A DNA stretch of 33,314 nucleotides from an uncultured beta proteobacterium. GTDB taxonomy: Bacteria > Pseudomonadota > Gammaproteobacteria > Burkholderiales > Burkholderiaceae_C. The stretch covers positions 1 to 33,314 of the forward strand of contig CAIYYA010000264.1 of assembly GCA_903930255.1 (NCBI GenBank), written 5' to 3'. Below, one piece after another: positions 17,491 to 33,314 of this stretch (position 1 is the first letter of the stretch; each line of letters begins with the position of its first letter). Below the pieces are notes generated by a model. It did no database searches and was not told the origin of the DNA. It saw nothing but the letters and a program-made list of their open reading frames with translations. The position numbers were made by a program, and so were the translations under genes.

Positions 17491-17508
17491 TTAATAGGGG
17501 CTCTGTGT

Positions 17509-17832: not shown

Positions 17833-17843
17833 GGCATCACCTC

Positions 17844-18221
17844 TTACATTGAAAATGAACTGCCGCAGCCACAGGTGGTCTGTGCATTGGGGTTGTGAAT
17901 GACAAAGCGTGAGCCCTCCAGGCCCTCTTCAAAGTCCACCTTGGCGCCCAGCACATACTGCAGACTCATGGCATCTACCACCAACGCGACACCTTCGGTA
18001 AGGATCTGCGTATCGTCCTCGGCCACCTGGTCATCAAAGGCAAATCCATATTGAAAACCAGAGCAGCCACCGCCCGTCACATAAAGGCGCAGCTTGAGTT
18101 CAGGGTTGCCCTCTTCCGATATCAATTCAGCCACTTTGGCCGCCGCCGCCGGGGTGAACTCAAGTTGGCCGGGCATCATGCCAAACGCGTTGGCTTGGTC
18201 AGTGATCAATTCTGCTTGCAT
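17844..18221 (-). CDS. A-type Fe-S carrier, ErpA-like
   Basis: The 125-residue HesB/IscA family protein has conserved Cys in [12 protein letters not shown] and [35 protein letters not shown] and the acidic insert [13 protein letters not shown] are closer to ErpA than to IscA. An N-terminal extension of about 20 residues precedes the domain. The ATG at 18221 follows AAGGAA; the longer frame to 18287 overlaps iscU. Having both an ErpA-like and an IscA-like carrier in one nif-linked isc operon is unusual and may support high Fe-S demand. Confidence 0.9.
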
Positions 18222-18265
18222 GTTGATTCCTTGGTTGGGGATGAAATGGTCTGATGTGCATTGAA

Positions 18266-18700
18266 TTAGCGAGTGCTGGAAGCACAAGCAATTTGCTCAG
18301 ACACTAGCGTGCCAGCGCCCGCCGGGTGACGCGACCGGAAATCGGCCACAGCAGCCTTGATGGCATCCTCAGCCAGAATCGAGCAATGAATCTTGACCGG
18401 TGGCAGCGCCAGTTCTTCGGAAATGTCAGCATTCTTGATCGCCAGGGCTTCGTCCAATGTGCGCCCACGCACCCATTCGGTGACCAACGAGCTTGACGCA
18501 ATGGCCGAGCCGCAGCCATAGGTTTTGAACTTGGCATCTTCAATCACACCCTGTGCGTTGACCCTGATTTGCAAGCGCATCACATCACCGCAGGCGGGTG
18601 CGCCCACCATGCCGGTGCCCACACTGTCGTCACCCGCTTCAAAAGCGCCCACGTTGCGTGGGTTTTCGTAGTGGTCAACCACTTTTTCGCTGTATGCCAT
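18266..18700 (-). CDS. iscU: Fe-S scaffold protein IscU
   Basis: This is the scaffold on which IscS sulfur and iron form [2Fe-2S] clusters. Three cysteines are visible in [23 protein letters not shown] and [14 protein letters not shown]. The HscA-recognition motif LPPVK is present just before the third Cys. At 144 residues it is slightly longer than E. coli IscU, with a short C-terminal tail ([20 protein letters not shown]). It lacks the NifU central [2Fe-2S] and C-terminal Nfu domains, so this is an IscU scaffold and not NifU. Confidence 0.95.
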
Positions 18701-18749
18701 AAAAATTCTCCGTAAATGGATGGAAAAGTTCGACTGAGAGCACTCAGGG

Positions 18750-19994
18750 TCAGTGGGCAGCCCATTGAATCGTGCTCAGATCAACCCCTGCCTGCACCAT
18801 GTCCCACAGCGGGCTCATGGCGCGCAGACGATTCACCACCTGCGTTACCTGTTCAATCGTGTAATCGATGTCTTGTTCGGTGCTGAAACGCCCCAACGAA
18901 AAGCGCACCGAGCTATGCGCCAGCTCGTCACTGCGCCCCATGGCGCGAAGCACATAGCTGGGCTCCAAAGAAGCCGAGGTGCAGGCTGAACCCGACGACA
19001 CTGCTACACCCTTGATACCCATCAGCAGCGATTCACCCTCAACATAATTGAAGCTGACATTCAGGTATTGCGCAGCACGCTGATGCGCATCCCCATTGAG
19101 CACCACGGCATCGAGCTGTTTAAAACCTGTCCAAAGCCTTTCACGCAGGGCGCGCACGCGTGCGTTGTCTGCCGTCATTTCCTGGCGCGCCAAGTCAAAA
19201 GCATCACCCATGCCGACAATTTGGTGTGTTGGCAGCGTGCCTGAGCGCATGCCACGCTCGTGCCCACCGCCGTGCATCTGCGCCTCCAGTCGCACACGGG
19301 GTTTGCGCCGCACATACAAAGCGCCAATCCCCTTGGGGCCATAAATTTTGTGAGCGGATAAAGACATCAAATCAATCGGCAGCGTGACCAAATCAATGGC
19401 CACTTTGCCAGCTGCTTGAGCCGCATCCACATGGAACAGCACACCTTTGGTGCGGCAGATGGCACCGATTGCGGCAACATCCTGAATCACACCGGTTTCG
19501 TTGTTAACCATCATGACCGAGGCCAACAATGTATCGGGGCGCAATGCCGCCTCAAACACACCCAAATCAAGCAAACCCGTGGGCAGCACCGGCAGCACAG
19601 TTACTTCAAACCCTTCGCGCTCGAGCTCGCGCATGCTGTCGAGCACGGCTTTGTGTTCAGTGGCAACGGTAACCAAATGTTGGCCTTTGGTGCGGTAAAA
19701 ATGCGCCGACCCTTTGATGGCCAAGTTATTGGACTCTGTGGCGCCAGAAGTCCATGCCAATTCACGCGGGTCGGCGTTGATGAGCGCCGCCACCTGCTTG
19801 CGGGCCAATTCAACCGCTTCATCGGCGGCCCAGCCAAAAGCGTGCGAACGGCTGGCAGGGTTGCCAAACAGCTCTGTCAAATACGGCATCATCTTGCCCG
19901 CGACCCGGGGATCCACCGGTGTCGTGGCTGCGTAATCAAGGTAAACGGGGGCTGCAGCACTGCGGGCGACTTGGTCGCATTCGGAATCCGGCAT
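18750..19994 (-). CDS. iscS: Cysteine desulfurase, IscS-type (nif-linked)
   Basis: This PLP enzyme takes sulfur from cysteine for Fe-S assembly. It has 414 residues. The N-terminal [29 protein letters not shown], the PLP lysine in [17 protein letters not shown], and the active-site Cys loop [19 protein letters not shown] are all intact. The ISC-type long Cys loop and the partner iscU favour IscS over NifS, although in a nif cluster some annotators would call it nifS. It is the first gene of an operon driven by a sigma-54-type promoter (20033-20048) and is divergent from nifA. The ATG follows a CAGGAGCC ribosome site. Confidence 0.94.
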
Positions 19995-20266: not shown

Positions 20267-21955
20267 ATGGTGAATACTCAAGCAATTGAATCGCGGCGTG
20301 AACTTAATGCCATTTACGAAGTCAGCAAAACGCTGGCAAGCTCACTCGACATTGCCAAAACGTTTCGGGAAACCCTGAATTTTTTGCTGCACGCGTTTGA
20401 CTGGCGGCGCGCCTTTGTGGTGCTGGGCGAGCCGCATGGGCGTTTGCGCGGGCTGTGTGCCGTGGGTTTGACGCGTGAAGAACAGCAGCGCTTGCAATTT
20501 GAGTCGGGTGAAGGCATTGTGGGCCGTGTCTATGCTAACGGCATTCAAATCGTAGTGCCGGACGTACGCACCGAGCCCCTGTTTCTGAATCGTACCGGCG
20601 CGGCTGACCAAACCCCCGACATTGCCGTGGCCATGCTGACCACCCCCATCAGCGCCGACCGTCGCACCGTTGGCGTGCTGGTCATCGACTGCAACAACCC
20701 AGATGAAGCACGCAGTTTTTCCAATGACCTGCAGTTGCTCAAGATGGTGGCTACCCTGATGGGGCAAGCATTTTTATTGCATCGCAGCGTTAGTGCTGCC
20801 AATACCCATCTACAAGACGAGGTGCGACGCATGAGCAAGGCGCTCAAACCCAGTCAACACATTGACCAAGTGGTTGGCATGTCTGCCCCGATGCAAGAAG
20901 TGTTTGACCAGGTTCACCAAGTGGCGCCGGCGCGCACCACTGTGCTGTTACGTGGCGAAAGCGGCACTGGCAAAGAGGTGATAGCCCGGGCCATTCACAA
21001 CCTGTCGCCGCGGAAAAAAGAGGCTTTTGTGCGCGTTAATTGCGCGGCGCTAACCGAATCCCTGCTTGAGAGTGAACTATTCGGCCATGAGAAAGGCTCA
21101 TTTACCGGAGCTCAAGGTCAGCGCAAAGGTCGTTTTGAGATGTCGCATGGTGGCACGCTGTTCCTGGATGAAATTGGCGATATTTCTGCCTCCTTTCAGG
21201 CCAAGCTATTACGCGTGTTGCAAGAGCGAGAATTTGAGCGGGTGGGTGGTAGCGCTGTGGTGAAAGTCGATGTACGCCTCATTCTGGCGACCAATCGCAA
21301 TCTGGAGCGCATGGTGCAGGCAGGCGAATTTCGCGCAGACCTGTACTACCGTATCAATGTGGTCAGCATTCAGTTGCCCCCGCTGCGAGAGCGCCGCGAC
21401 GACATTCCTGCTATGGCCAAGCACTTTCTCGATCGATTCAACAAAGAAAATGCGCGCTCTACCCAGTTTAGCCCTGCGGCCATGCGGGTGCTCACCAGTT
21501 GTTACTGGCCCGGCAACGTGCGCGAGCTGGAAAACTGCGTCGAGCGTACCGCCACCATGGCGCATGACGACATCATCACCAACCTGGCTTTTCCGTGCCA
21601 GGGCAACCGCTGCTTGACGCAAGTGTTGCATCACATTGAACGTGTCGATGCTGTGAGTCCTTCGCGTCTGTCTGGGATTCCCATCACCGAAGTACCCATG
21701 GCAGCGCCGCCCGTGGCTGCTGTTCCGGCATCCCTGGCTCCCAGCGACGATGCCAGCGTTGCCGTAGATGTGAGCGCTCAGGCAGAACCGGTTGCTGACA
21801 GTGAAGACAAGCCAGAGGGTGAGCGCGAGCGCCTGATCTGGGCTATGGAACGCTGCGGCTGGGTGCAAGCCAAAGCAGCCCGCCTGCTGAAAATTTCGCC
21901 ACGGCAAATGGGCTACGCCTTGCAAAAAAATGGGATTGAGGTCAGGAAGTTTTAA
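20267..21955 (+). CDS. nifA: Nif-specific sigma-54 activator NifA (oxygen-sensitive class)
   Basis: NifA is the transcriptional activator of nif genes. The 562-residue protein has an N-terminal GAF domain (about 10-180) and an AAA+ sigma-54-interaction domain with Walker A GESGTGKEV, the sigma-54 contact loop GSFTGA, Walker B GTLFLDEIGDIS, and RYRINV-like sensor region. A linker and a C-terminal Fis-type helix-turn-helix (AMERCGWVQAKAARLLKISPRQMGYAL) follow. Cys412, Cys424, Cys444 and Cys449 form C-X11-C-X19-C-X4-C, the redox signature of directly oxygen-sensitive NifA. The linker after it (about 470-520) is Ala/Pro/Val-rich. ATG 20267 follows CCGGAG. Its target boxes are found upstream of nifV, apbE and nifB in this window. 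Confidence 0.97.
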   Translation: MVNTQAIESRRELNAIYEVSKTLASSLDIAKTFRETLNFLLHAFDWRRAFVVLGEPHGRLRGLCAVGLTREEQQRLQFESGEGIVGRVYANGIQIVVPDVRTEPLFLNRTGAADQTPDIAVAMLTTPISADRRTVGVLVIDCNNPDEARSFSNDLQLLKMVATLMGQAFLLHRSVSAANTHLQDEVRRMSKALKPSQHIDQVVGMSAPMQEVFDQVHQVAPARTTVLLRGESGTGKEVIARAIHNLSPRKKEAFVRVNCAALTESLLESELFGHEKGSFTGAQGQRKGRFEMSHGGTLFLDEIGDISASFQAKLLRVLQEREFERVGGSAVVKVDVRLILATNRNLERMVQAGEFRADLYYRINVVSIQLPPLRERRDDIPAMAKHFLDRFNKENARSTQFSPAAMRVLTSCYWPGNVRELENCVERTATMAHDDIITNLAFPCQGNRCLTQVLHHIERVDAVSPSRLSGIPITEVPMAAPPVAAVPASLAPSDDASVAVDVSAQAEPVADSEDKPEGERERLIWAMERCGWVQAKAARLLKISPRQMGYALQKNGIEVRKF

Positions 21956-23153
21956 ACCAGCTTTGCAGCGCCAGCCCGCCCGTGCCCAAAACCAGTGGTC
22001 GACAACTTGGATTCAATTTGCAAAAGGCATCGAGCCCGCGCACATTGCCCTGGTTCACACCGCTTTTGACCTCGAAGGCGAACAACTCACCCTGCTGCCG
22101 CAGCACAAAATCCACCTCGCTGGTGCCATCGCGCCAATAGTGAATGCAGGGCTGCGTGCTGCTGTGTGTCAGGTTGCGCGCCAGCAACTCCGCGCCCACA
22201 GCGCTCTCGGTCAAGCGCCCCCATAGCTCTGGGGTCGCGCGCAATTGCGCTAGTGTCAATCCGTCGAAAAGTGCGTTGGCACCCAGCAATGCGGTGTTAA
22301 ACACTTGCAGCTTCGGGCTGGAACCCCGCTGGCGCACCGTTTGCCCGGAAAATTTTTGCAAACCACACACCATGCCCGCCCCTTCAAGCAGCTCCAGGTA
22401 GTGCGCCAGCGTGGTGGTGTTACCGGCGTCACTGAGTTGGCCCAGCATTTTTTGGTAGCTCAACTCCTGCGCGCTGTAACGGCAGGCCAGGTCAAACAGG
22501 CGGCGTAACAAAGCCGGTTTTTGCACAGGGGCCATCAGCAAAACATCTTTACTGATGGTGGTCTCTATCAGCGCATCGCGCACATAAGCCGCCCAACGCG
22601 CGGGCTCACTGATCAAGCTGGCGGCACCGGGGTAACCACCGTAGTAAATAAACTCATCGAGCGTGAAGCCAAAGGCTGCCTGCATTTCGGCAAACGTCCA
22701 GTGACCCAGGCGTGTCATCTCAAAGCGTCCGGCCATGCTCTCGGTCAAACCGCGGGCAATCAGCAAAGGGGCAGACCCCAACACCACCACCCGCACGTCA
22801 CACCCGGTACGGGTGTCTTCGTCCCATAAGTGCTTGATCTCTTCAGTCCAATTGGGCAGCTTTTGCACTTCATCGAGCACTAGCACGCAGCCTTGTGCTT
22901 GGGTACTGAGGGCGCGGGCCACCTCCCATTGCGTGCGCAGCCAACTGCTGCCTACCAACCCAGGGTTGTCGGCACTCACACTGTGCTGGGCAATGGCAGG
23001 GCCAGGCTGCGCCGTCAAGGCAGCCATTGCCTGGCGCACCAAGGTGGTTTTACCCACCTGGCGCGGCCCCGCCACCACCTGCAAAAAGCGCCGAGGCTCT
23101 TGCAGGCGTGCCAACAAACTACTCAAAAGGGGGCGTTGAATTTCGGCTGTCAT
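21942..23153 (-). CDS. AAA ATPase with DUF4143-type C-terminus
   Basis: The 403-residue protein has Walker A in VVAGPRQVGKTTLVRQ and Walker B in GCVLVLDEVQKLPNW. A sensor region (VVVLGSAPLLIARGLTESMAGRFEM) and a C-terminal DUF4143-like part ending in a nuclease-fold signature (EVDFVLRQQGELFAFEVKSG) follow. Such ATPases are common, mobile and of unknown role. The gene is convergent with nifA, and its last 14 bp overlap the nifA 3' end, so no room is left for a nifA terminator. Its upstream region carries an array of TACTCAAT motifs. Confidence 0.88.
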   Translation of the reverse strand: MTAEIQRPLLSSLLARLQEPRRFLQVVAGPRQVGKTTLVRQAMAALTAQPGPAIAQHSVSADNPGLVGSSWLRTQWEVARALSTQAQGCVLVLDEVQKLPNWTEEIKHLWDEDTRTGCDVRVVVLGSAPLLIARGLTESMAGRFEMTRLGHWTFAEMQAAFGFTLDEFIYYGGYPGAASLISEPARWAAYVRDALIETTISKDVLLMAPVQKPALLRRLFDLACRYSAQELSYQKMLGQLSDAGNTTTLAHYLELLEGAGMVCGLQKFSGQTVRQRGSSPKLQVFNTALLGANALFDGLTLAQLRATPELWGRLTESAVGAELLARNLTHSSTQPCIHYWRDGTSEVDFVLRQQGELFAFEVKSGVNQGNVRGLDAFCKLNPSCRPLVLGTGGLALQSWFKTS

Positions 23154-23155
23154 AA

Positions 23156-23263
23156 ATTACTCAATGGTTTGACTAATTTTACTCAATTGATTGAGTAATT
23201 TCAATTTCATCAACACTCAATGGCATTCATCGCTTGTCCGTGCTGGGTTGTTTACTACTCAAT
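23156..23263. promoter_or_regulatory. Array of TACTCAAT motifs upstream of the ATPase gene
   Basis: TACTCAAT occurs at 23158-23165, 23180-23187, 23190-23197 (reverse) and 23256-23263, with a CACTCAAT variant at 23214-23221. The two central copies form the perfect inverted repeat TTACTCAAT-TG-ATTGAGTAA (23179-23198). This looks like a multi-site operator for control of the ATPase gene. Confidence 0.55.
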
Positions 23264-23794
23264 TAATAGTACTTAACCCACCATTAGCATGCCGACAGCC
23301 CGGGCTATGATGCCACTCATGCCCGACACCCCCACCAACCCAGTCGCAGTCGAAAACATTGGCGCCGCCGCTTTCATCGCGCGTTGGCGCGGCGTCACCG
23401 CCAGCGAGCTGCCCACCGCGCAGAGCTTTGTTATCGACCTGTGCGCCCTGCTGGGCGTGGACAAACCGCACCCCACACCTGACCAAAGCTACATGTTCGA
23501 ACGCCCGGTGACCTTCCGCCATGGTGACGGCTCCGGCAGCGTCGGGCGCATTGACTGCTACCGCCAGGGCGCGTTTTGCCTAGAGTCCAAAAAGCTCAAG
23601 GGCGCTGGCTACACCAAAGGTTTTGATGACGGCCTGCTGCGCGCGCCCTGCCCGCTGCCGAAGGTCGCCCGCCGTTTGTGCTGGTGTACCCGACAGTGCA
23701 GATTTCGTCATGTTTTGGTGGGCACGAGCAGCGGCGTTGGTTGGTGCGGGTTTGGCGCAGCGCATGGGGTTGATCACCACCAACAGCTTGCGTC

Positions 23795-23927
23795 ATTCCG
23801 CTTTCAGATCAATACGACATAGGCGCGAAGCCGCAGACAGTGCTAACGCGTGTCCCAAGCCATCTATCGATGCCTGTGGGAGGGCAAGGCGAAGCAACAA
23901 CATGTCGGATTGATATGGAAATGGAAT
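23795..23927 (+). mobile_element. MITE-like element, copy 2 (133 bp), inserted in the type IIG pseudogene
   Basis: The ends are ATTCCGCTTTCAG and its imperfect complement (ATGGAAATGGAAT). The 26-bp terminal inverted repeats match at 21 of 26 positions. The host reading frame (TTNSLR before, QTFNRR after) defines the insertion point closely. Only a single C is repeated at the borders, so no clear target-site duplication is seen. Copy 1 is at 4735-4868 in the opposite orientation. Confidence 0.78.
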
Positions 23928-24150
23928 CAGACCTTTAACCGGCGTGTCGTTCAGTCTGCGCTGGAGGGGACTTTGCGCTTGACTGGTTCTGTTTCGAGTA
24001 GTTTTGTTTCGGACGAACCTGTGAATGTGCCAGCAGCAAACCCGGCCAGATGCGAACTGGTGTTTGCCATTCCCGACCACCCGTGGGTGGATAGCACCGA
24101 CGGTGCCGCCGTACGGATTGCCATGACGGTTGTTCAACGGGCAGCGCTAG

Positions 24151-24210
24151 CAAAAATGGGGTCGGATCCCGATTTTGCTCAGCAAAACTCGGGCTCTGAC
24201 CCCATTTTTG
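24151..24210. repeat. 60-bp imperfect hairpin (REP-like) inside the pseudogene
   Basis: CAAAAATGGGGTCGGATCCC and GGGCTCTGACCCCATTTTTG form the outer arms, with GATTTTGCT and AGCAAAACTC inside. The two halves pair over about 28 positions with a few mismatches. The GGGGTCNGANCCCGA core resembles REP sequences linked to RAYT (Y1 transposase-like) proteins. The family name is my inference. Confidence 0.6.
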
Positions 24211-24883
24211 CGGATTCCGGTGCAGGGCGACTCCTGACTGTGGCCGACGAACAACCGGGGTCAGAAGGCGAAGTCCTCGTCACGCTGGCTGAGCGGCGTG
24301 GGCAGTTTCCTGCAACGTACCAGTGGCTTTTGGAACGGGTGAAGCCTGAGCGCAACCAGAACAACCGCTCGAGCTAGCGTGATAACTGGTGGATTTTTGG
24401 TGAGCCCCGCAAAGTACTCAGACGCCAACTCGCTGGCCTGCCCCCCTTGGGGCTACACCTGCGCCGAGCGTAAAGCCCGCCAAAAACCTGACGCTAACCG
24501 GTCTGTACAACGTGCTGCAAGCCCTGCGCGAAGGCCGGGCGCTTACAGCCAAAGAGAAGCAAATCTACAGCGCCGGTCTGGTGGGCGTGCTGGGAACCTT
24601 GCATGACGGGTTGGACGCCGCTGTGCTGGCTGCCTTTGGCTGGGATGATTTGTCTGGCGCTATCAAAGACGAGCTGCTGCAACGTCTGGTCACCCTGAAC
24701 CAGCGCCGCGCCGCCGAGGAAGCTGCGGGCAAAGTGCGTTGGTTACGCCCGGCGTTTCAAAATTCGCTCTCTAAAACAGAGCTGTCTGCGCAAGTACAGC
24801 AAGCGCTAGAGGTCGATTTGGCAGTTAACCCAGCGACCCCTGCTGCTGCAGCTCAACACCTCGGGTATCGCCACCTGGGTTAA

Positions 24884-25024
24884 AGCCTGAAATCGCACAC
24901 CTACAACACTGACATTGCAGCGGGCATCGCAAGCGACATCCTGACGCGGTTTTATCCTGCCTTTGCCGCCATGGCAAACACCTTTGCAGCTCCGTTAACC
25001 GTTCAGTCCGATCCCGACACATGA
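24884..25024 (+). pseudogene. C-terminal remnant of a HEPN toxin (NTase substrate-binding family)
   Basis: In the frame just after the stop at 24881-24883 the DNA encodes LKSHTYNTDIAAGIASDIL and RFYPAFAAMANTFAAPL, ending at the TGA 25022-25024. SHTYN...A..I....YPAF is the C-terminal signature of the HI0074-type nucleotidyltransferase substrate-binding (HEPN) proteins. The N-terminal two-thirds, including the HEPN active region, are absent. The stop overlaps the following MNT start as ATGA, which is the native order of this toxin-antitoxin type. The upstream sequence belongs to the type IIG pseudogene. Confidence 0.68.
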
Positions 25025-25296
25025 AGTACGGGCTGCCAGATCAAACGGTCAATCAAATCTGCGCCTTGCTGGCGCAATACCCTGCGGTTGAGCGCGCAGT
25101 GTTGTACGGATCACGTGCTAAAGGAAATTACAAACCTGGCTCTGACATTGACCTGACCTTACACGGGTCAGACCTCACGCCCAGGTTGTGCGCCACTATT
25201 GCCGAACTCAAGCACCCCGAGCTTGAAGCCCATATTCAGCGGATTGGGGTGATCTTCTTTGAGAGAAAGTCACTGTCATCTTTGTCGCATCACTGA
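25021..25296 (+). CDS. MNT-type nucleotidyltransferase antitoxin, probably internally deleted
   Basis: The 91-residue protein has the minimal nucleotidyltransferase motif VLYGSRAKGNYKPGSDIDL, with Gly-Ser and the first two catalytic Asp. It also has the typical C-terminal HPELEAHIQRIGVIFFERK. These antitoxins neutralise HEPN toxins by AMPylating them. Family members are about 100-105 residues and carry a third acidic residue in a DLLLPYxxDLS segment between the two motifs. That stretch is missing here (LTPRLCATIAELKHPEL joins directly), which suggests an in-frame deletion and loss of activity. Its stop codon lies inside a NifA box for nifB. Confidence 0.75.
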   Translation: MKYGLPDQTVNQICALLAQYPAVERAVLYGSRAKGNYKPGSDIDLTLHGSDLTPRLCATIAELKHPELEAHIQRIGVIFFERKSLSSLSHH

Positions 25297-25298
25297 CA
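25283..25298. promoter_or_regulatory. NifA upstream activator sequence 1 for nifB
   Basis: TGT-CGCATCACTG-ACA is an exact TGT-N10-ACA about 92 bp upstream of the -24 element. It overlaps the last codons and stop of the MNT gene. Confidence 0.8.
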
Positions 25299-25335
25299 GT
25301 ACCCAGCAAAACGGAACGACAAGTCAACTGACTGC

Positions 25336-25351
25336 TGTGCCACATCCGACA
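25336..25351. promoter_or_regulatory. NifA upstream activator sequence 2 for nifB
   Basis: TGT-GCCACATCCG-ACA is a second exact NifA box. Its centre is 53 bp (about five helical turns) from box 1 and about 39 bp from the -24 element. Confidence 0.65.
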
Positions 25352-25380
25352 AAACAAGGTTAAAAAAGGTGATTTTCAGG

Positions 25381-25396
25381 TGGCACGAATTTAGCT
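25381..25396 (+). promoter_or_regulatory. Sigma-54 (-24/-12) promoter of the nifB operon
   Basis: TGGCACGAATTTAGCT fits TGGCACG-N4-TTGCW with one change (TAGC for TTGC) and the correct GG-to-GC spacing. It predicts a leader of about 34 bases before the nifB ATG. Confidence 0.85.
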
Positions 25397-25440
25397 AATA
25401 ACCCTGTGTGCGGCCATGGTCGGTCGCGAAAAGGGGTTTC

Positions 25441-27033
25441 ATGCAGACAAGTGTTAACACCGGTTCCATGCCAGCCAAGACGTATGTCAGCCTCGGCCAG
25501 ATCAAATCACGAGGCGCCAAGCTGGAGCTACCGGAAGTAGGTGGTGGCTGTGGCACACAGGGCGTAGCAGGCAAAGCCAGTTGTGGCTCATCCGACGGCC
25601 CGGCCGACATGCCCCAAGCGATTTGGGACAAGGTCAAAAACCACCCTTGCTATTCCGAAGAAGCACACCATCATTTCGCACGCATGCATGTGGCTGTAGC
25701 ACCGGCCTGCAACATCCAGTGCAACTACTGCAACCGCAAATACGACTGCTCCAACGAATCGCGCCCCGGTGTGGTGTCGCAAAAACTCACGCCAGAGCAG
25801 GCGGTCAGAAAAGTAGTCGCAGTGGCCAGCGAAATTCCGCAGATGACGGTGCTGGGCATTGCCGGACCCGGCGACGCTTTGGCCAACCCGAAGAAGACCT
25901 TTGACACCTTTCGCATGCTGCAAGCGCAGGCCCCTGACCTCAAGCTCTGCATCTCGACCAATGGCCTGGCGCTGCCCGATCTGGTCGATGAAATATGCAG
26001 CTACAACGTGGACCATGTCACCATCACCATCAACATGGTGAACCCGGCCGTCGGCGAAAAAATTTACCCCTGGATTTTCTACAACCATCGGCGCATCCGG
26101 GGACTAGAGGCTTCCCAAATACTGCATGAGCGCCAGATGCTGGGGTTGGAAATGCTCACCGCACGCGGGGTGCTAACCAAAGTCAACTCGGTGCTGATTC
26201 CCGGCATCAACGACCAACACCTGATCGAGGTGAACCGCGAAGTCAAAAAACGCGGCGCCTTTTTGCACAACATCATGCCGCTCATCTCTGAGCCTGAGCA
26301 CGGAACGGTATTTGGCCTGACTGGCCAGCGCGGCCCCAGCGCCGCCGAACTCAAAGCCGTGCAAGATGCCTGTATGGGCGGTGCCAACCTGATGCGCCAC
26401 TGCCGCCAGTGCCGTGCCGACGCCGTCGGATTGTTAGGCGAAGACCGCAGCGAAGAGTTTTCCCAGGACAAACTCGACAACATGTTGGTGGTTTATGACC
26501 TGGAAAAACGTCGCGCTTACCAAGACCAGGTGGCGCTCGAGAGACAAGCACAACAAACGGCCAAACAGCAAGCACAGCAAGCATCAGCTGCTATCAAAAT
26601 TGCGGATGACCTGAAGGTCATGGTGGCTGTGGCGACCAAAGGTGGTGGTCGGGTTAACGAACATTTTGGCCACGTCACCGAGTTTCAGGTGTTTGAAGTC
26701 TCGGCCGAGCGTGCTCTGTTTGTAGGGCATCGCCGGGTGGACCACTATTGCCAGGGTGGCTATGGCGACGATGACCAACTGCCCTCGGTGGTGCGCGCCA
26801 TCAACGACTGCCATGCCGTGCTGGTGGCCAAGATTGGCGCCTGCCCGCGCGATGAACTGAGTGCCGCCGGGGTCGAGCCAGTGGATCGCTATTTTGGCGA
26901 ATTTATCGAAAAAGCCGCACTTGACTGGTTTAACGACTACCGCGCGCGCATTGCCAGTGGTGCGGTGATTCACCAAAGCCGAGGCGACGCGTTGATTCGC
27001 CAAGGTGCTTACACCAGCGCCCTGGCAGCCTGA
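25441..27033 (+). CDS. nifB: Nitrogenase FeMo-cofactor biosynthesis radical SAM protein NifB
   Basis: NifB builds the [8Fe-9S-C] NifB-co core, inserting carbide from SAM. The 530-residue protein has the radical-SAM motif [14 protein letters not shown], preceded by [43 protein letters not shown] and the second Cys set [18 protein letters not shown] follow. A Gln/Ala-rich linker (about 365-385) joins a C-terminal NifX-like domain with [18 protein letters not shown]. An N-terminal stretch of about 55 residues contains two Cys and precedes the catalytic core, as in other proteobacterial NifB. ATG 25441 follows AAGGGG; a GTG at 25408 would lie at the predicted transcription start. Confidence 0.97.
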
Positions 27034-27068
27034 AATTCTTTAACCCTCAACCCTTACGGAGTATCACC

Positions 27069-27263
27069 ATGGCTCACCAAATCAATACCGCTACCTGCAC
27101 CAGTTGCGACGCCTGCCAACCCGAGTGCCCGAACGTCGCCATTCGTGTCAAAGGGGGTGTTTACATCATCAACGACAAAAAGTGCAATGACTGCGAAGGT
27201 CACTTTGACGAACCGCAGTGCGTCTCGGTCTGCCCAGTCGATGACTGCATCACCGAAGTCTGA
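27069..27263 (+). CDS. fdxN: 2[4Fe-4S] ferredoxin, FdxN-like
   Basis: The 64-residue ferredoxin has one [12 protein letters not shown] cluster motif (C-X2-C-X2-C-X3-C). The second, widened motif is [22 protein letters not shown] (C-X2-C-X8-C-X3-C), typical of FdxN proteins encoded after nifB. It may supply electrons to NifB or nitrogenase and is a likely partner of RnfB. It lies 35 bp after nifB. Confidence 0.94.
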
Positions 27264-27290
27264 TTTTCTTCACAGAAAGCCATCCTTATC

Positions 27291-27686
27291 ATGCTGCCCA
27301 ACGTCACCATCACACCCGCTGCGGCGAAGTTCATCAACCGGGTCGTGCGCTTTTCTGGTCTGGCCAAAGGCGCCGGTTTGCGCCTGGCCGTGACCCCTGG
27401 CGGCTGCTCGGGCTACTCGTCTGTGTTCAGCGCTGAATCTGCCCCGCAAGAAGGAGAACAGCTACTTGAAACAGGCGGAGTTCGCCTGTTTTTGGGCGCA
27501 GAAAGCCGCTTGATGCTCAACGGCATCACGGTTGACTTTGTTGAAACTGCCACCGAGTCTGGCTTGAGCTTTGTCAACCCCAACAAAGAGGCTTGCGCTT
27601 GCAGCAGTGCCGATGCCGCCCCCAAACCCAGCGTGACCCGGATTGGCATCGATGCCATCGGTCGCGGTCGCCCGGCATGGGTGTAG
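27291..27686 (+). CDS. HesB/IscA-like A-type Fe-S carrier (nif-associated)
   Basis: The 131-residue protein begins with the A-type pattern VTITPAAAKFINRVVRF and LRLAVTPGGCSGYSS, and the paired Cys appear as EACACSSAD. A C-terminal extension of about 25 residues (KPSVTRIGIDAIGRGRPAWV) goes beyond usual IscA. It is the third A-type protein in the window. A position directly after nifB-fdxN is typical for the nif-specific IscA, which in Azotobacter lies beside nifU. The start ATG has only a weak ribosome site. Confidence 0.9.
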   Translation: MLPNVTITPAAAKFINRVVRFSGLAKGAGLRLAVTPGGCSGYSSVFSAESAPQEGEQLLETGGVRLFLGAESRLMLNGITVDFVETATESGLSFVNPNKEACACSSADAAPKPSVTRIGIDAIGRGRPAWV

Positions 27687-27689
27687 CCC

Positions 27690-28037
27690 ATGGCTGACAT
27701 CAACCGCGACGATGACGAGATTGAGCTGGCCTCTCCCCCCCGCTTTACCTATGGTGAGCGGGTCGTATCACGCTCGGTGGTGCGCAACGATGGCACCTAC
27801 AACGGCCATGACATTGGTGCCGTGCTGGTCAACAAGGGCGAGATTGGCTATGTGATTCACATCAACACTTTTTTGCAGCAGTTTTATATCTACGCGGTGG
27901 ACTTTGTGGAGTCGGGGCACCGTGTCGGCATGCGCGCCAAAGAGCTTTGCACCCTGGACAACTTGCCCGACGAGGTGCTGGAGCAGTTGGGTGACAAAGC
28001 TGTGGCGCTTCGTACATTGGGATCGGCCAAGCCATGA
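27690..28037 (+). CDS. nifZ: Nitrogenase maturation protein NifZ
   Basis: The 115-residue protein shows the NifZ pattern: PRFTYGERVVSRSVVRNDGTY, GEIGYVIHINTFLQQFYIYAVDFVESG, VGMRAKEL. NifZ helps form the second P-cluster of the MoFe protein. The start lies 3 bp after the preceding stop, and the end overlaps the next gene as ATGA. A long, well-matched central segment makes the call firm. Confidence 0.94.
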   Translation: MADINRDDDEIELASPPRFTYGERVVSRSVVRNDGTYNGHDIGAVLVNKGEIGYVIHINTFLQQFYIYAVDFVESGHRVGMRAKELCTLDNLPDEVLEQLGDKAVALRTLGSAKP

Positions 28038-28312
28038 CGACTATCGAAATTCGCGAACCCGCCTATGCATGGGGCCAGCGCGTCATTGCGCTGGATGATT
28101 TGATCAACGACGGCAGCTTCCCAGATCGCCCGCTTGATGCACTGTTGGCAGCGCGCGGTTCAGTCGGTGAGATTGTCAAAATCGGCCATGCACAAGACCT
28201 GAATGAACCCGTCTATCTGGTGCAGTTTGACGGCGCTGTGATCGGTTGCCTTGAAATCGAACTGGTCCCAGCACCGTTGGGCTTGCTGCCAGAGAACGAG
28301 GACGCAGCGTGA
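28034..28312 (+). CDS. Second NifZ-domain protein
   Basis: The 92-residue protein has a weaker NifZ-like pattern (YAWGQRVIALDDLINDGS, GSVGEIVKIGHAQDLNEPVYLVQFDG, CLEIELVPA). NifZ and this protein share the same small beta-barrel fold, so it probably arose by tandem duplication and divergence. It overlaps nifZ (ATGA) and the next gene (GTGA), so the three are translationally coupled. Its role beyond nitrogenase maturation is not known. Confidence 0.82.
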   Translation: MTTIEIREPAYAWGQRVIALDDLINDGSFPDRPLDALLAARGSVGEIVKIGHAQDLNEPVYLVQFDGAVIGCLEIELVPAPLGLLPENEDAA

Positions 28313-28662
28313 ACCCGGCGGACCCGGCGATTGTGGTGAATGCCAGCACCCAAGTGGCAAACCTGACCCAGCATCGCCTGGCGCGGGCTCTGCGCAAACG
28401 TGTGCGTTACCGCTATGTCAAGCCACGCGTGTTGCGCGAAGGGCGTGGATTTCGAATTCAAAGCCCGTGCTGCTCGCGCAAGGTGGACCCGGCTGGCGGC
28501 ATGATTGACATCGCGTTGCTGGTGCCCCACGAAGGAAACAGTTGGTGCCTGTGCTCACGCGATCATGCCAGCAGCACCTGGGTGCCGCAGCTTCAAGACC
28601 AGCCGCTGGATGTGTTGCTGGAATTGTTGTGCAGCGACCCCCAACGCCAATTTTGGTACTGA
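28309..28662 (+). CDS. Nif-linked hypothetical protein
   Basis: The 117-residue protein starts at GTG 28309, overlapping the previous stop by 4 bp. It has a basic N-terminal half (LTQHRLARALRKRVRYRYVKPRVLREG), a Cys pair (SPCCSRKV), a second Cys pair (WCLCSRDH), and a C-terminal LDVLLELLCSDPQRQFWY. The layout suggests a small beta domain with possible metal or Fe-S binding through CC and CLC. The end recalls small DUF3024-type proteins, but I cannot confirm that. Its position between nifZ2 and nifT says it belongs to the nif operon. Confidence 0.78.
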   Translation: MNPADPAIVVNASTQVANLTQHRLARALRKRVRYRYVKPRVLREGRGFRIQSPCCSRKVDPAGGMIDIALLVPHEGNSWCLCSRDHASSTWVPQLQDQPLDVLLELLCSDPQRQFWY

Positions 28663-28687
28663 TCCATTTTCCCAACCAGGAGCTCCC

Positions 28688-28915
28688 ATGAAACTCATGA
28701 TCCGCAAAGACAGCAAAGGCACCTTGACCGGCTATGTGCCGAAAAAAGACCTTGAGGAACCCATTGTTGCCATGGTCAATCCCGCCATGTGGGGCGGGCT
28801 GGTGACTCTGGCCAATGGCTGGCAGTTTGATTTGCCGGCCATGCCAGCCGATACGCCGCTGCCCATCACCGTGGAAGCCCGGCGCTTGCCACTGGCGCAA
28901 GATGCAGAAGACTGA
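28688..28915 (+). CDS. nifT: Nitrogen fixation protein NifT/FixU
   Basis: The 75-residue protein begins MKLMIRKDSKGTLTGYVPKKDLEE and continues WGGLVTLANGWQFDLP, the usual NifT/FixU pattern. ATG 28688 follows CAGGAG; the frame stays open upstream to 28505 but that part overlaps the previous gene. NifT is a small nif protein of undefined role, often found after nifK or nifB and nifZ. The end is 2 bp from the next start. Confidence 0.93.
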   Translation: MKLMIRKDSKGTLTGYVPKKDLEEPIVAMVNPAMWGGLVTLANGWQFDLPAMPADTPLPITVEARRLPLAQDAED

Positions 28916-28917
28916 TC

Positions 28918-29178
28918 ATGGCCATCAGCACCGAATATCTGACTGCTGCAGGTGAAATCGTCGCTGCCGCCGCATCCGTGAAAGATGCTGCAGCCGCATT
29001 GCGCAGCCGCGATTCCGCCATGCGCGTGCTGGTGGTTGACGCAATCGACATGCGCGATGAAACACCCGCCTTGGAGTTGGGCCAGCGCGAAATCTACCTG
29101 GCCAGCTCAAACGGTCATTGCTGGAGTATCACCGAGCAACTGACTGAAGCCACGGCACTCATCCTGACACAGGATTAA
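28918..29178 (+). CDS. Nif-linked small hypothetical protein (DUF6129-like)
   Basis: The 86-residue protein has an N-terminal helical Ala-rich part (LTAAGEIVAAAASVKDAAAALRSRD) and a C-terminal piece, REIYLASSNGHCWSITEQLTEATALIL. That end resembles the nif-associated DUF6129 proteins as I remember them (YLVDGRDHC...LT..L..ATG). It follows nifT by 2 bp and precedes the DegT-like gene by 2 bp, so it is within a tightly packed operon. Its function is unknown. Confidence 0.78.
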   Translation: MAISTEYLTAAGEIVAAAASVKDAAAALRSRDSAMRVLVVDAIDMRDETPALELGQREIYLASSNGHCWSITEQLTEATALILTQD

Positions 29179-29180
29179 TC

Positions 29181-30341
29181 ATGGAAGTTGATGTCATCTC
29201 GCTGTTTGAGCCCGAGTCGGGTGCGCCCGAGCTGGCTCTTGTGCGTGCCGTGCTAGAGTCATCGCAATGGAGCGACGGCCCCATGATCGAGTCGTTCGAG
29301 CGTGCTTTTGCTGGCTGGATCGGTCGCAAACATGCAGTTGCCGTAGCCAGTGGAACGCTGGGCACATGGATCGCCCTGCGCGCGCTGGGCATTGGCCCCG
29401 GTGACGAGGTCATCTGCACCTCACACACCTGGCATCAGGTGGCCCAAGCCATTACCCTGGCGGGTGCAACGCCGGTGTTTGCCGACATCAACTACTGGAC
29501 AGGCAGTTTGAGTCCCGAAAAGGCGGCCCTCAAAATCACCCACAAGACACGCGCCATCCTGGCAGGCAACACCAACGGCCATCCGGCAGCCTGGGCGCAA
29601 CTAAGGTGGTTGGCCGATGCTCATGGACTCAAGCTGATCGAAGACAGCACCGAGGCTTTGGGCTCGCGCTACCAGGGTAACAATGTTGGCACTTTCGGTG
29701 ATGTGTCGGTGTTTGATTTTTCTGCGCCATCGGCCTTATGCACCGGCGAAGGCGGGATGCTGGTCACCGACGACGACACGCTGGTACACGAGCTGCGCTA
29801 CTTGCGCAAGCGCCGTGTGGCAGATCGGGCTTCCGTGTCGATTGGCTCGCGAGTGCCCCTTCAAGCAGGTATGAGCGAGCTGACTGCAGCGCTGGGTTTT
29901 GCCCAATTAGCCGGGCTGGATGATCGACTGGTGGCGCGCAGACAGGTGGTCACCTGGTACCACGAGCAAATGCAAAGCTTTGAGGGGGTCAAGCCGCCCT
30001 ACATTGGCGAGCATGTGGATGAAGTGCACTGGATGCTGTACGTGGTGCATTTGGGCAAGCGCTTCTCGGGCAGCACCCGTGCCCAGATGATCGACGACCT
30101 GCTGTCTTGCGGCATTGAAACGGCTCCCTACAGCCACCCACTGCACCAGCAGTTTTATTACATGAACAAGAGTGAAGCCATCGGCCACAAGCGTGGTGGC
30201 CTGATTGACACCGAGCGCATAGGCGACCGTGCTTTGGCGCTGCCATTGCACACGTTACTGGATGAGGCACACGTCCAGTACATCGTCAAAACTCTCAAAG
30301 ACACGGCCACCAATGTCGGTGCCGGGGCTGCCATTTATTAA
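29181..30341 (+). CDS. DegT/DnrJ/EryC1/StrS-fold protein lacking the PLP lysine
   Basis: The 386-residue protein aligns along the whole length of DegT-family aminotransferases: AVASGTLGTWIALRALGIGPGDEVI, AGATPVFADI, LKLIEDSTEALGSRYQG, GTFGDVSVFDFSAP, CTGEGGMLVT and a C-terminal ALPLHTLLDEAHVQYIV. In the family the sequence before TGEGG is S-F-x-x-x-K-x-L. Here it is DFSAPSALCTGEGG, so the Schiff-base lysine is Ser184 (codon TCG at 29730). Related dehydratases use His there, but Ser would not support PLP chemistry of either kind. The Asp of IEDS is kept. It is the ninth gene of the nifB operon, with no sugar-nucleotide genes near. I infer a nif-linked pseudoenzyme or altered enzyme. Confidence 0.9.
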   Translation: MEVDVISLFEPESGAPELALVRAVLESSQWSDGPMIESFERAFAGWIGRKHAVAVASGTLGTWIALRALGIGPGDEVICTSHTWHQVAQAITLAGATPVFADINYWTGSLSPEKAALKITHKTRAILAGNTNGHPAAWAQLRWLADAHGLKLIEDSTEALGSRYQGNNVGTFGDVSVFDFSAPSALCTGEGGMLVTDDDTLVHELRYLRKRRVADRASVSIGSRVPLQAGMSELTAALGFAQLAGLDDRLVARRQVVTWYHEQMQSFEGVKPPYIGEHVDEVHWMLYVVHLGKRFSGSTRAQMIDDLLSCGIETAPYSHPLHQQFYYMNKSEAIGHKRGGLIDTERIGDRALALPLHTLLDEAHVQYIVKTLKDTATNVGAGAAIY

Positions 30342-30349
30342 GGAAAACC

Positions 30350-31201
30350 ATGAACTCCCAAGACCTGATCCATGAGATCGCCAACAGCTTGGCATCTGGC
30401 GCAGTTATTCCATATTTGGGCCCCGACATGCTGTCGCTGTGCACCGACATCACGGTGCCGGCAACCCCGTTGACCCTGGCCGAGAGCATGACGACCAAGG
30501 TCAGCGTGCCGCACAAGATTCGCAAGCGCTTGACGCAAGCCGCACAGTTCATCGAAAACTTCAAGCATCGCAAGTCGGTGGTGCATCTGATGAACGAAGC
30601 CTTTGCCAGCACACCCGCACCATCGCCCTTGCACCTGGCACTGGCTGGCAGTGGCGCAGGCCTGTGGGTGGACACCTGGTATGACGACACCTTTGCTGCC
30701 GCGTTAGCACAGACGCAAGCAGCAGGTGAATGGCAACAGGTACAGGGTTTGTCACAGTCCGAGCACTTCGGCCATTGGACCGGTGTCTATTCAAGTGCGG
30801 GGGCGGTCTTGCCAGAGTTGCCCAAAGACGCTGCGCGCATTCTCTACAAACCCTTGGGCAGTCACGGCCCGGCTGGCAACTATCTTGTCTCTGACAGTGA
30901 TTACGTCGAGGTGCTGACTGAGATTGACATCCAGACCCCCATTCCGGCGGCCGTACAAGCTTGGCGCAGTGGGCGAAATTTTCTGTTTTTGGGTTGCCGC
31001 TTTGATGACCAACTGACACGCTGTTTTGCCCGCCAGATCATGAAACGCTCCAGCGACCGGCACTGGGCCGTTTTGCCCAATCAGCCCACCCGCATGGAAG
31101 CGCGTTTTTTGGCGGAACAAAACATCACCCGCATTGACATGACTTTGGCGCAGTTTGCAACAGCGCTGATGGATGCCATGCAACCAGCGCTTACGGTCTG
31201 A
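30350..31201 (+). CDS. SIR2-like domain protein, nif-operon linked
   Basis: The 283-residue protein has the layout of SIR2_2-type proteins: an N-terminal GAVIPYLGPDMLSL where the family has a GAG-x-S NAD loop, ILYKPLGSHGPAGNYLVSDSDYVEVLTEI, and the C-terminal Rossmann strand RNFLFLGCRFDDQLTRCFAR. The GAG loop reads GPD, and the KLHG-like His position is altered (KPLGSHG), so NAD hydrolysis is doubtful. It follows the DegT-like gene by 8 bp with AAGGAAAACC as ribosome site. In defence systems SIR2 domains consume NAD, but here the setting is a nitrogenase operon. The role is unknown. Confidence 0.82.
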   Translation: MNSQDLIHEIANSLASGAVIPYLGPDMLSLCTDITVPATPLTLAESMTTKVSVPHKIRKRLTQAAQFIENFKHRKSVVHLMNEAFASTPAPSPLHLALAGSGAGLWVDTWYDDTFAAALAQTQAAGEWQQVQGLSQSEHFGHWTGVYSSAGAVLPELPKDAARILYKPLGSHGPAGNYLVSDSDYVEVLTEIDIQTPIPAAVQAWRSGRNFLFLGCRFDDQLTRCFARQIMKRSSDRHWAVLPNQPTRMEARFLAEQNITRIDMTLAQFATALMDAMQPALTV

Positions 31202-31248
31202 ACCATTCGCCCGTTTTTTTACCCAACGGCCTTGCGCCACTAAACACC

Positions 31249-31539
31249 ATGACCACACTCACCGTACTCCCCTCCGGTAAATCTTACGAAGTCGCTGCAG
31301 GCACCAGCTTGCTCAAAGCCCTGCAAATTGCCGGCGAGCCGATCATCAGCAAATGCGGTGGCGAAGCCAAGTGCGAAAGCTGCCATGTGATCGTGTCCGT
31401 GGGGCGCAAGAGTCTGTCCAAAATCCAGCGTATCGAGAACGAAAAGCTCGACGGCATCGTCGGCGTCAGCTCTGGCTCGCGGCTGGCTTGTCAGGCCATT
31501 TTGGGTGAGGAGCCAGTGACGGTTGAACTGGTGCAATAG
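31249..31539 (+). CDS. [2Fe-2S] ferredoxin, nif-linked
   Basis: The 96-residue plant/adrenodoxin-fold ferredoxin has ligands in KCGGEAKCESCHV (C-X5-C-X2-C) and RLACQA 35 residues later. C-X5 spacing is that of the vertebrate-type ferredoxins and FdxD. It is the last gene of the nifB operon. It probably carries electrons to a nif-specific step, perhaps for NifB or the Fe-S operon. No clear terminator follows. Confidence 0.92.
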   Translation: MTTLTVLPSGKSYEVAAGTSLLKALQIAGEPIISKCGGEAKCESCHVIVSVGRKSLSKIQRIENEKLDGIVGVSSGSRLACQAILGEEPVTVELVQ

Positions 31540-31662
31540 GTGGTTTTGGGGCACTTGCTTGGCACGGCATTGACGCCCGGCGTGGCGATTCAGGATTGCG
31601 CAAGAACTATTGGACTATAAATTTTGACCGAATTGACTGTGCCGAAAATTGCATAAAAAAAG

Positions 31663-31837
31663 CTGAAGCGCCCGTCCACCATGCACAAGAAGCTATCAAA
31701 ATCAATGCAAATTTGCCAACAAAAGCAGCCTTCTGGTCAACCCTGTTCGATCGCCAACCGTATTGGGTTTTGCGATTTCGCTGTCAATTGGTTATTCACC
31801 AATTTTCAATTTAACGGTCGGACTTGATGCAAGACGA
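31663..31837 (+). repeat. Dispersed intergenic repeat, copy B
   Basis: It aligns in order with 13672-13839 (see copy A), sharing ATGCACA, AGCTATCAAAATC, TTTCGCTGTCA-like and CCAATTTTCAA blocks and the GCAAGACGA end. Divergence is marked, so it is an old repeat. Confidence 0.6.
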
Positions 31838-32009
31838 TTGACTTTTGAAGGGCTGGAAGCGGTCGGCCAGCTTGCCGAAGTGCTTGCTCCATACCAGCCA
31901 TTGAGAGAAGTATCGTTCACGCACCATTCTGCATGAGTGGATGCGTTGAGATTGGACAGGTTAAAAATCAAGCTCGCTGGCAATAGCTTTGCTTGAAATT
32001 TCCGCTTCT

Positions 32010-32027
32010 CTAGTCCATTTGGACTAG
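32010..32027. promoter_or_regulatory. Perfect palindrome upstream of the secreted protein gene
   Basis: CTAGTCCA-TT-TGGACTAG has 8-bp arms with no mismatch. It lies about 130 bp before the ATG at 32160. It could be an operator or a small hairpin; no T-run follows, so a terminator is unlikely. Confidence 0.45.
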
Positions 32028-32159
32028 GTCAAGCGCTCCAAATGAATAGAAAATCGGTAACAGATTCATTTTTCAAGTCCAGTGAAGCATGACTGCTTTA
32101 GCGGATTGGCTCATTGAAATCTATTTCTTCCGTCAATCATCCCCTCAAAAGGAACTCCA

Positions 32160-32621
32160 ATGAAACCAATCTCTATCGCATCCGCCAGCGCCCTGGCCCT
32201 CGGCCTGGCCCTCTCCAGCTTGCCCGCCCAAGCTCAAAAAAATTCCGCCAGTGCTTCTACGCCGGGCGGCGGCGGCGGCCTCGCCGCTGGGTCGAATGCG
32301 GTATCACCCACCGTGCAGATCATCCAACTAATTGAAGTAATCCAGACTGGCCCCAAGGGCAGCACCGCTGCACCCAAGGCCAGTACCTGGCGCATTGAGC
32401 CCACGGGCGCCACATTCAGCGGCCCGGTGAATCTATGCCTGAAGTACAACTCGGGCTCGGCGCAAATATCCCAAGTGGGCAATAGTATCTCGAGTGCCCT
32501 GACGACCATGCTCAAGGAGATCAAGGACAAAAGCGGCAAGTCGACCTACACACGGGCGCCCGGCGACCCTGTGAACGACAAGCTCAACAGCCAGTTGTGC
32601 GTCCGATTGGTCTCGTTCTAA
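32160..32621 (+). CDS. Secreted hypothetical protein
   Basis: The 153-residue predicted exported protein starts with a clear signal peptide (MKPISIASASALALGLALS, cut after AQA). A Gly-rich linker (PGGGGGLAAGSN) and a folded part with two Cys follow (NLCLKYNSG and NSQLCVRLVSF) that could form a disulfide. I recognise no family. The ATG follows AAAAGGAACTCC. It is a single-gene unit: a palindrome and repeat DNA lie upstream and a strong terminator lies downstream. Confidence 0.8.
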   Translation: MKPISIASASALALGLALSSLPAQAQKNSASASTPGGGGGLAAGSNAVSPTVQIIQLIEVIQTGPKGSTAAPKASTWRIEPTGATFSGPVNLCLKYNSGSAQISQVGNSISSALTTMLKEIKDKSGKSTYTRAPGDPVNDKLNSQLCVRLVSF

Positions 32622-32655
32622 TCTGACTAATGACACAGCCGCTACGTCGGCACCC

Positions 32656-32686
32656 AAAGGCCTGCCGCATTGCAGGCCTTTTTTTA
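32656..32686 (+). terminator. Rho-independent terminator after the secreted protein gene
   Basis: AAAGGCCTGC-CGCATT-GCAGGCCTTT with a following run of T is a strong GC-rich stem, 35 bp after the stop codon. Confidence 0.9.
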
Positions 32687-32816
32687 TCCATTTAATTTCT
32701 ACACACTGTCGCCCAATGACTCCAGAGGGTCTGATTGCAGTCGTTGAACCTGTGCACGCCCAAGCCTATTGGTGAGCGGCTAAACTGAGTTTCAGATAGC
32801 AACTGAGGTAAGTAGC

Positions 32817-33314
32817 ATGGACAACGAATTCTCTGTCAACTCGGACGGGTTGCATCAGGCCGTCGATTTGATGAGTCGTGATTTCAGTAACTCAGAAGGT
32901 CTTGCCCTGCCGATAGAACTGCCACAGTTCGGGATTGGTTCCAGGGCTGCACTGAACTCTCTTGCACCGAGCATTCTGGGGGGCGCGGCGCGTTTGGGCG
33001 AGGCCGCATCATTTGCCCACATGGACCCGCCAACCCCATGGATAACTTGGGCGATTACGCTTTGGAACGCATCGCTCAATCAGAACCTACTTCACCCTGC
33101 TACAGCACCTGTCGCTCGCCAAATGGAGCAACGGGTCGTGGCATGGCTCGCACCATTGTTCGGCATGAATGGTGGACACATGACACCGGGTTCGACAGTG
33201 GCCAATTTGACCGCTTTGTGGTCGGCGCGAGAGTGCGCTGGCATTACGGAGGTGATTGCATCAGACGGAGCGCATCTCTCCATTGCAAAAGCGGCTCATA
33301 TCTTGGGTCTCAAA
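32817..33314 (+). CDS. PLP-dependent group II decarboxylase, N-terminal part (3' end outside window)
   Basis: The frame is open from ATG 32817 to the window end (166 residues). It has the group II decarboxylase signature AASFAHMDPPTPWITW, followed by NQNLLHPATAPVARQMEQRVVAWLAPLFGMNGGHMTPGSTVANLTALWSARE, where the GSTxANL segment contacts PLP. Members decarboxylate glutamate, aspartate, diaminobutyrate or aromatic amino acids; the substrate cannot be told from this part. A GAGG ribosome site lies just upstream. It is separated from the nif genes by a strong terminator and is probably unrelated to them. Confidence 0.9.
   Translation, partial: MDNEFSVNSDGLHQAVDLMSRDFSNSEGLALPIELPQFGIGSRAALNSLAPSILGGAARLGEAASFAHMDPPTPWITWAITLWNASLNQNLLHPATAPVARQMEQRVVAWLAPLFGMNGGHMTPGSTVANLTALWSARECAGITEVIASDGAHLSIAKAAHILGLK

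Follow-up and report, generated by a model that had tools for sequence, protein, structure and literature searches.

A DegT-fold protein without the Schiff-base lysine, conserved in nif operons as a probable accessory of nitrogenase

Background

In photosynthetic Bradyrhizobium, BRADO5411 is listed under nitrogen fixation as "putative Aminotransferase, DegT/DnrJ/EryC1/StrS family", and its neighbours, which encode a 2Fe-2S ferredoxin and NifZ-domain, LRV FeS4, TPR and SufA-like proteins, resemble those of the gene described here (PMC3899966, in its accessible part). According to the same part of that paper, nif-related genes of one operon, among which BRADO5414, 5416, 5418 and 5424 are named, are conserved in the Nod-independent strains and in Azorhizobium caulinodans but not in three rhizobia without free-living fixation, and bacteroids of A. 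caulinodans show increased expression of the cluster (PMC3899966). The accessible part of PMC3899966 contains no discussion of the BRADO5411 active site. Judging from its gene order, BRADO5411 would belong to the clade called nif-DegT below.

A class-V aminotransferase, and no DegT protein, stands beside NifZ in the accessible part of PMC3912193; that of the Azorhizobium paper PMC2443382 names no aminotransferase, and "DegT" is absent from the main text, so far as accessible, of PMC9769520, PMC3916325 and PMC8305402. Literature searches for a DegT gene in a nif cluster or with nifB and Sir2, and for pseudoenzyme together with nitrogenase and pyridoxal, returned no match. SIR2-family proteins have been recorded in nif surroundings: Rcc03262 of Rhodobacter capsulatus adjoins NifT and was not found in a nifA double mutant (PMC6925177), ZMO1821 of Zymomonas lies in the nif cluster (PMC8594446), and PST_1325 of Pseudomonas stutzeri is located beside nifH (PMC11332353). 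In the accessible parts of these three papers, the proteins are given without a function.

Nitrogenase assembly is a bottleneck for the transfer of nitrogen fixation into new hosts. The lists of needed genes rest on a few model strains, which may lack the nif-DegT module.

Results

The nif-DegT gene and its operon

The window, that is, the whole stretch of 33,314 nucleotides analysed, contains an operon in the order nifB, 4Fe-4S ferredoxin, IscA-type protein, two NifZ proteins, DUF3024 protein, NifT, 86-aa protein, DegT protein (nif-DegT), SIR2_2 protein and 2Fe-2S ferredoxin (Table 1). This gene order, together with the linkage to NifT described below, supports the preliminary description, which had placed the DegT gene in a nif operon and not among sugar genes.

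Table 1. Features of the nif-DegT operon in the window
Feature	Position	Strand	Basis or remark
Promoter region before nifB	25283..25396	+	NifA-type sites TGT-N10-ACA at 25283 and 25336
nifB	25441..27033	+	PF04055, PF02579; ATG at 25441, ORF also open from GTG at 25408
4Fe-4S ferredoxin, FdxN-like	27069..27263	+	By sequence and position
IscA/HesB-type Fe-S protein	27291..27686	+	PF01521, TIGR00049
NifZ domain protein 1	27690..28037	+	PF04319
NifZ domain protein 2	28034..28312	+	PF04319
DUF3024 protein	28309..28662	+	PF11225
NifT	28688..28915	+	PF06988, TIGR02934
86-aa protein, directly 5' of DegT	28918..29178	+	Conserved position
Lys-less DegT-fold protein (nif-DegT), 386 aa	29181..30341	+	Intact ORF, PF01041, clade support, dN/dS
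Codon GAT, Asp179, at the ordinary-DegT Ser 5 residues before Lys	29715..29717	+	Asp in 93 of 93 nif members; Ser 25, Ala 2 of 27 others
Codon TCG, Ser184, Schiff-base Lys position	29730..29732	+	Codon read, PDB alignment, family alignment
PLQAGM, residues 226-231, replacing G-x-N-x-[RK]-M	29856..29873	+	Family alignment
Clade-specific C-terminal tail NVGAGAAIY, residues 378-386	30312..30338	+	C-terminal to the Pfam match, which stops at residue 372
SIR2_2-domain protein, 283 aa	30350..31201	+	PF13289, 72 bits
[2Fe-2S] ferredoxin (Fer2)	31249..31539	+	PF00111

For the NifA site and the -24/-12 element, the usual consensus patterns are taken as the reference. An imperfect -24/-12 element, TGGCAC-N5-TAGCT, is located at 25381-25396 and was not scored by the sigma-54 pattern scans; in the stretch 24800-33000, a third TGT-N10-ACA occurs at 28001, inside NifZ1. 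Behind the NifA-type sites, nif-DegT would presumably be co-expressed with the genes from nifB through NifZ to NifT.

The reading frame of nif-DegT is intact, as described earlier, with no internal stop over 386 codons. The protein matches PF01041 (DegT/DnrJ/EryC1/StrS) with 304.4 bits against a curated cut-off of 19.8, over residues 15-372 and profile positions 5-359 of 360, and so belongs to this family along the whole domain. Its best PDB matches (phmmer) are the perosamine synthetases 3dr4 and 3bn1, and ColD-type entries are also among the matches.

A codon-level comparison with nine close relatives gave dN/dS values of 0.066-0.096, with the caveat that dS in these nine window pairs is about 1.0-1.3 and near saturation; the closer pair L029-L030 has a dN of 0.032 and a dS of 0.299. 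From the above, nif-DegT is under strong purifying selection in the nif clusters of many bacteria. A decaying relic without function might be suspected from locus L134, where the frame is broken, and from genome G207, where no more than the final 34 residues can be recognised; however, the dN/dS values show selection, and columns and tail are invariant in 93 rows, so this reading is rejected as having next to no probability.

Of 113 loci found in named genomes by similarity to nif-DegT, 80 were kept; further loci came from genomes of the same class and of the phylum. The ferredoxin counterparts after nifB are annotated "4Fe-4S binding protein". The gene of the 86-aa protein is present in 79 of the 80 loci and lies at most 700 bp upstream of DegT in all 79 with room. 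The window protein itself has no Pfam match, and its counterparts differ against DUF6129 (L134 over the cut-off, L133 below it, L135 without a match). A SIR2-like gene is found in 75 of 80 loci, at most 2.5 kb downstream in 73 of the 75 with room, and is absent from L079 and L080; in Bradyrhizobium, G461 and G388 it adjoins NifT at the opposite side of nifB.

The operons of most relatives carry three more genes: a NifS-like class-V gene lies between NifZ and NifT in 72 of 76 judgeable loci, and TPR and LRV_FeS genes are each present in 63 of 70. The window operon contains none of them, so the NifS-like, LRV and TPR proteins are not obligatory partners. A tblastn search of the window with the LRV and TPR proteins of L133 gave no match; an LRV_FeS search of the window's own genome gave none either, and neither did the control genomes. 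At the junctions 27686-27690 and 28662-28688, where most relatives have their TPR, LRV_FeS and NifS-like genes, these genes are absent from the window and the gene borders are clean.

These neighbours bear on one alternative. LCB1/SPTLC1 is the Lys-less subunit of serine palmitoyltransferase, and nif-DegT might likewise be an inactive subunit paired with a working PLP enzyme, here the operon's class-V NifS-like cysteine desulfurase. The regular place of that gene agrees with the idea, and the L133 copy keeps the GHK Lys and the Cys-bearing loop. However, the gene is missing from that place in the window, L079, L080, L081 and L093, and the sole match in the window is the other NifS/IscS-like gene at 18750-19994, which is 41-42% identical. 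A NifS-like partnership is weakened, and we regard it as very unlikely.

Two further parts of the window can be described. Between the nifA-like gene and nifB (21945-25296) there are an AAA_14/DUF4143 ATPase gene, short ORFs and an ORF with a nucleotidyltransferase-like GSRAKG...SDIDL motif; the whole may be an insertion. Upstream of the nifA-like gene, 5160-19994 (minus strand) contains an rnf operon with ApbE, a homocitrate-synthase-like (NifV-like) gene, and genes for HSP70, two IscA-type proteins, NifU_N and a class-V NifS/IscS-like protein.

Loss of the Schiff-base lysine

The preliminary description proposed that Ser184 (TCG) replaces the PLP lysine, and the alignment confirms it: Ser184 stands opposite the K of FFGNKIITTGEGG in perosamine synthetase 3bn1 (phmmer), while 3dr4, which is near-identical to 3bn1, has Ala at this position. 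Among 93 full-length nif-type members, column 184 holds Ser in 76, Gly and Ala in 5 each, Cys and Leu in 3 each and Gln in 1, while the Lys column of 27 ordinary DegT proteins holds Lys in 24 and His in 3. Thus Lys occurs in 0 of 93 nif members against 24 of 27 others, and no nif member has His. A first alignment of 91 rows gave Ser 75, Ala 5, Gly 3, Cys 2, Leu 2 and Gln 1 in 88 nif-type proteins, with Lys in L017 and L018 and His in L001. Three members cut by contig ends (L031, L084, L086) have Ser, and L140, found later, has Gly. These three were left out of the 93 and 27, together with L102 (the same gene as L016), L118 (partial), L124 (internal stop) and L003 (a fragment). Most of the 93 rows are betaproteobacterial and many are close kin, so the row counts overstate independence; members from other families, at 47-55% identity, agree with the loss.

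Across nine close relatives, residue 184 is encoded by seven Ser codons (TCT 1, TCC 1, TCG 5) and two Cys codons (TGT, TGC). Since close relatives encode Ser or Cys by different codons, a sequencing error behind the TCG, which the preliminary description had allowed for, is rejected, and so is chance. Its proposed survey of nif-linked homologues for a fixed non-Lys residue was positive, also with the three cut members and L140 included. It is the loss of Lys that is fixed in the clade and not Ser itself: a particular importance of Ser did not hold up, as Ala, Gly, Cys, Leu and Gln also occur, and the column has an entropy of 1.08 bits, with 64% of columns more conserved. Lys is conserved elsewhere, at 271 (93 of 93), 373 (91 of 93), 114 (86 of 93) and 293 (75 of 93), and none of these aligns with the PLP site, which speaks against another conserved Lys in that column.

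The cofactor pocket and the C-terminal tail

That every other DegT landmark is present, as was claimed at first, proved wrong: Asp stands at 179, and P-L-Q-A-G takes the place of G-x-N-x-[RK]. By analogy to ArnB, we take the Ser at 179 and the Asn of G-x-N-x-R to be phosphate contacts, with the Asn contributed by the second subunit. In the clade this phosphate side is gone, with Asp for the Ser in every member and Gln at column 228 in 86 of 93, versus Asn 21, Lys 5 and Gln 1 in the 27 others; column 226 is Pro in 90 of 93 nif members versus Gly in 27 of 27. The pyridine-nitrogen Asp (Asp155) is present in all 93 nif members and all 27 others.

In the 3-dehydratases ColD and RfbH (E1), the Schiff-base Lys is replaced by His. 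Like them, nif-DegT might still bind PLP or PMP, though not through a Schiff base, and work as a PMP enzyme; the constant Asp155 and the ColD-type PDB matches fit this. However, the His-type relatives L001, L121 and L129 retain the Ser (179) and the Asn (228), positions that are occupied by Asp and mostly by Gln in the nif clade, and no constant catalytic residue has replaced the Lys. A PMP enzyme is therefore quite improbable. Identity with a His-type dehydratase is rejected, no His being found among the 93 at column 184.

Several columns that we place in the pocket from the known fold are strongly conserved: 130 (Asn), 154 (Glu), 155 (Asp) and 179 (Asp) are invariant in the clade, and 57 (Ser), 134 (His) and 158 (Glu) are the same in 92 of 93. 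Such a pocket, around a drifting Lys column and with the Ser-to-Asp swap at 179 complete, could have been remade as a binding or catalytic site for a phosphate-free ligand such as a metal ion, an amine or a small acid, making nif-DegT an enzyme or sensor. Against this, column 184 takes six different residues (Ser, Ala, Gly, Cys, Leu and Gln), so at least this side of the pocket has no constant chemical role; there is no known ligand, and the columns are placed by the known fold. We consider a new ligand rather unlikely.

Moreover, the clade has a C-terminal tail, N-x-GAG-x-x-IY, in which N378, G380, A381, G382, I385 and Y386 are each found in 93 of 93 members, V379 in 89, A383 in 90 and A384 in 92 of 93. 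The protein ends in IY or IYL in all 93, and the tail columns are mostly gaps in the 27 other DegT proteins.

The SIR2-like neighbour

Nif SIR2-like proteins have xxWYD, with Trp in 94 of 94, versus TTNYD in the ordinary L146 and L147, and mostly K-P-x-G, with His in 3 of 94, versus K-x-HG in the same two; their glycine loop is mostly YLGP. We take the motif residues to be the Asn of the NAD site and the catalytic His. Because this Asn, and nearly always the His, is gone, the neighbour may likewise be a pseudoenzyme, the second in this operon, a lead from motif comparison with two ordinary proteins. A search of PDB with the SIR2-like protein gave nothing useful (best E 0.49). In the class sample, the SIR2-like profile matched strongly in the eight nif-DegT genomes and G207, and nine more genomes matched at 1.8e-37 to 3.0e-32, eight of which have nifD.

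Distribution of nif-DegT

In a tree of 58 rows, one branch with support 100/100 splits 31 nif rows from the 27 others. NifT is found in 79 of the 80 similarity-fetched loci. The lone exception, for NifT as for the 86-aa gene, is L086, a locus that begins inside the DegT gene and carries SIR2-like and Fer2 genes. Among 274 genomes of the class, nifD was detected in 26 at an E-value of at most 1e-100 (25 of them above the curated cut-off) and DegT at E 1e-60 or better in 10, where the DegT, nifD and SIR2-like draws are taken as the same from their equal genome number and handles. Eight of the 10 are nif-type, and all eight belong to the 26 genomes with nifD. The remaining two, G028 and G174, have DegT proteins at 38-39% identity that keep Lys, and do not belong to these 26. 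Since only 8 of the 26 nifD genomes have nif-DegT, the protein can be no more than accessory.

In another class, 3 of 289 genomes contain nif-DegT, all three nif-linked. A phylum sample of 398 genomes gave seven matches at 1e-75, six of them nif-type; the seventh, G610 (L104), is Lys-bearing, and no operon gene was found beside it. The distant members L016, L100, L101, L103 and L140 are also nif-linked. The operon genes recur on a plasmid of Methylococcus (a gammaproteobacterium), on one of Bradyrhizobium (an alphaproteobacterium), where the DegT copy is broken, and in genomes of another class; G461, G388 and G718 are probably alphaproteobacteria.

Two incomplete copies were seen. On the plasmid of Bradyrhizobium sp. 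BWA-3-5 (L134, about 7790-8970), the broken DegT frame was left without annotation. In G207 (L158, 10951-11052, minus strand), the remaining 34 residues, which include the tail, lie within an open frame between the DUF6129-like and SIR2-like genes.

Discussion

As a transaminase, nif-DegT is almost certainly dead, judging from the residues it has lost, and it is very likely a retained accessory protein of nitrogenase. The pseudoenzyme proposal of the preliminary description thus stands as regards PLP chemistry, with no Lys and two more cofactor motifs lost, and as regards the nif linkage; a specific role for Ser and the intactness of the other landmarks do not stand. Since residues that normally hold the cofactor are lost and selection is nevertheless strong inside nif clusters, the protein probably has a different job in building or guarding nitrogenase. 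A scaffold role in nitrogenase maturation is suggested by the gene context.

We propose that a DegT protein of fold type I lost PLP catalysis, and presumably PLP binding, and was retained as a dedicated accessory of Mo-nitrogenase. Its structure is most likely the dimer typical of DegT proteins, and it would act by binding, not by transamination. Its interaction surfaces would be the old pocket (Asp155, Glu158, Asp179, Asn130) and the invariant tail; probable partners might be the 86-aa DUF6129-like protein, the SIR2-like protein or an Fe-S intermediate of the NifZ/NifT stage. From these conserved surfaces, we lean towards an adaptor that acts through pocket and tail, tempered by Asp155, which is kept throughout the clade and is not obviously needed without a pyridine ligand. 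More tentatively, and with the chances against it, the DegT and SIR2-like proteins, two enzymes dead in place, could form with the 86-aa protein a nitrogenase-specific assembly or protection complex, in which the tail is a docking peptide. The invariant tail and the pairing with a degenerate SIR2-like protein provide concrete handles on the function of nif-DegT.

In L133 and L135, nif-DegT is annotated as an aminotransferase. This conserved protein of diazotrophs is very probably none, and annotation-based models are therefore wrong there.

Comparison with known systems

GDP-perosamine synthetase (3dr4, 3bn1) is similar to nif-DegT in its DegT fold, length, pyridine-nitrogen Asp and TGEGG loop. 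In contrast, nif-DegT has no Lys, Asp179 for Ser, no G-x-N-x-R and an extra tail, and is encoded in a nif operon and not among sugar genes. The ColD/RfbH (E1) 3-dehydratases (3gr9, 3bb8) are also DegT proteins without the Schiff-base Lys; however, they fix His, whereas the nif clade fixes no residue at 184, and the three His-type relatives differ from the clade at 179 and 228 as described above. LCB1/SPTLC1 is likewise a fold-type-I PLP homologue retained after the loss of Lys, but for LCB1/SPTLC1 a catalytic partner from its own family has been proven, while none is known for nif-DegT.
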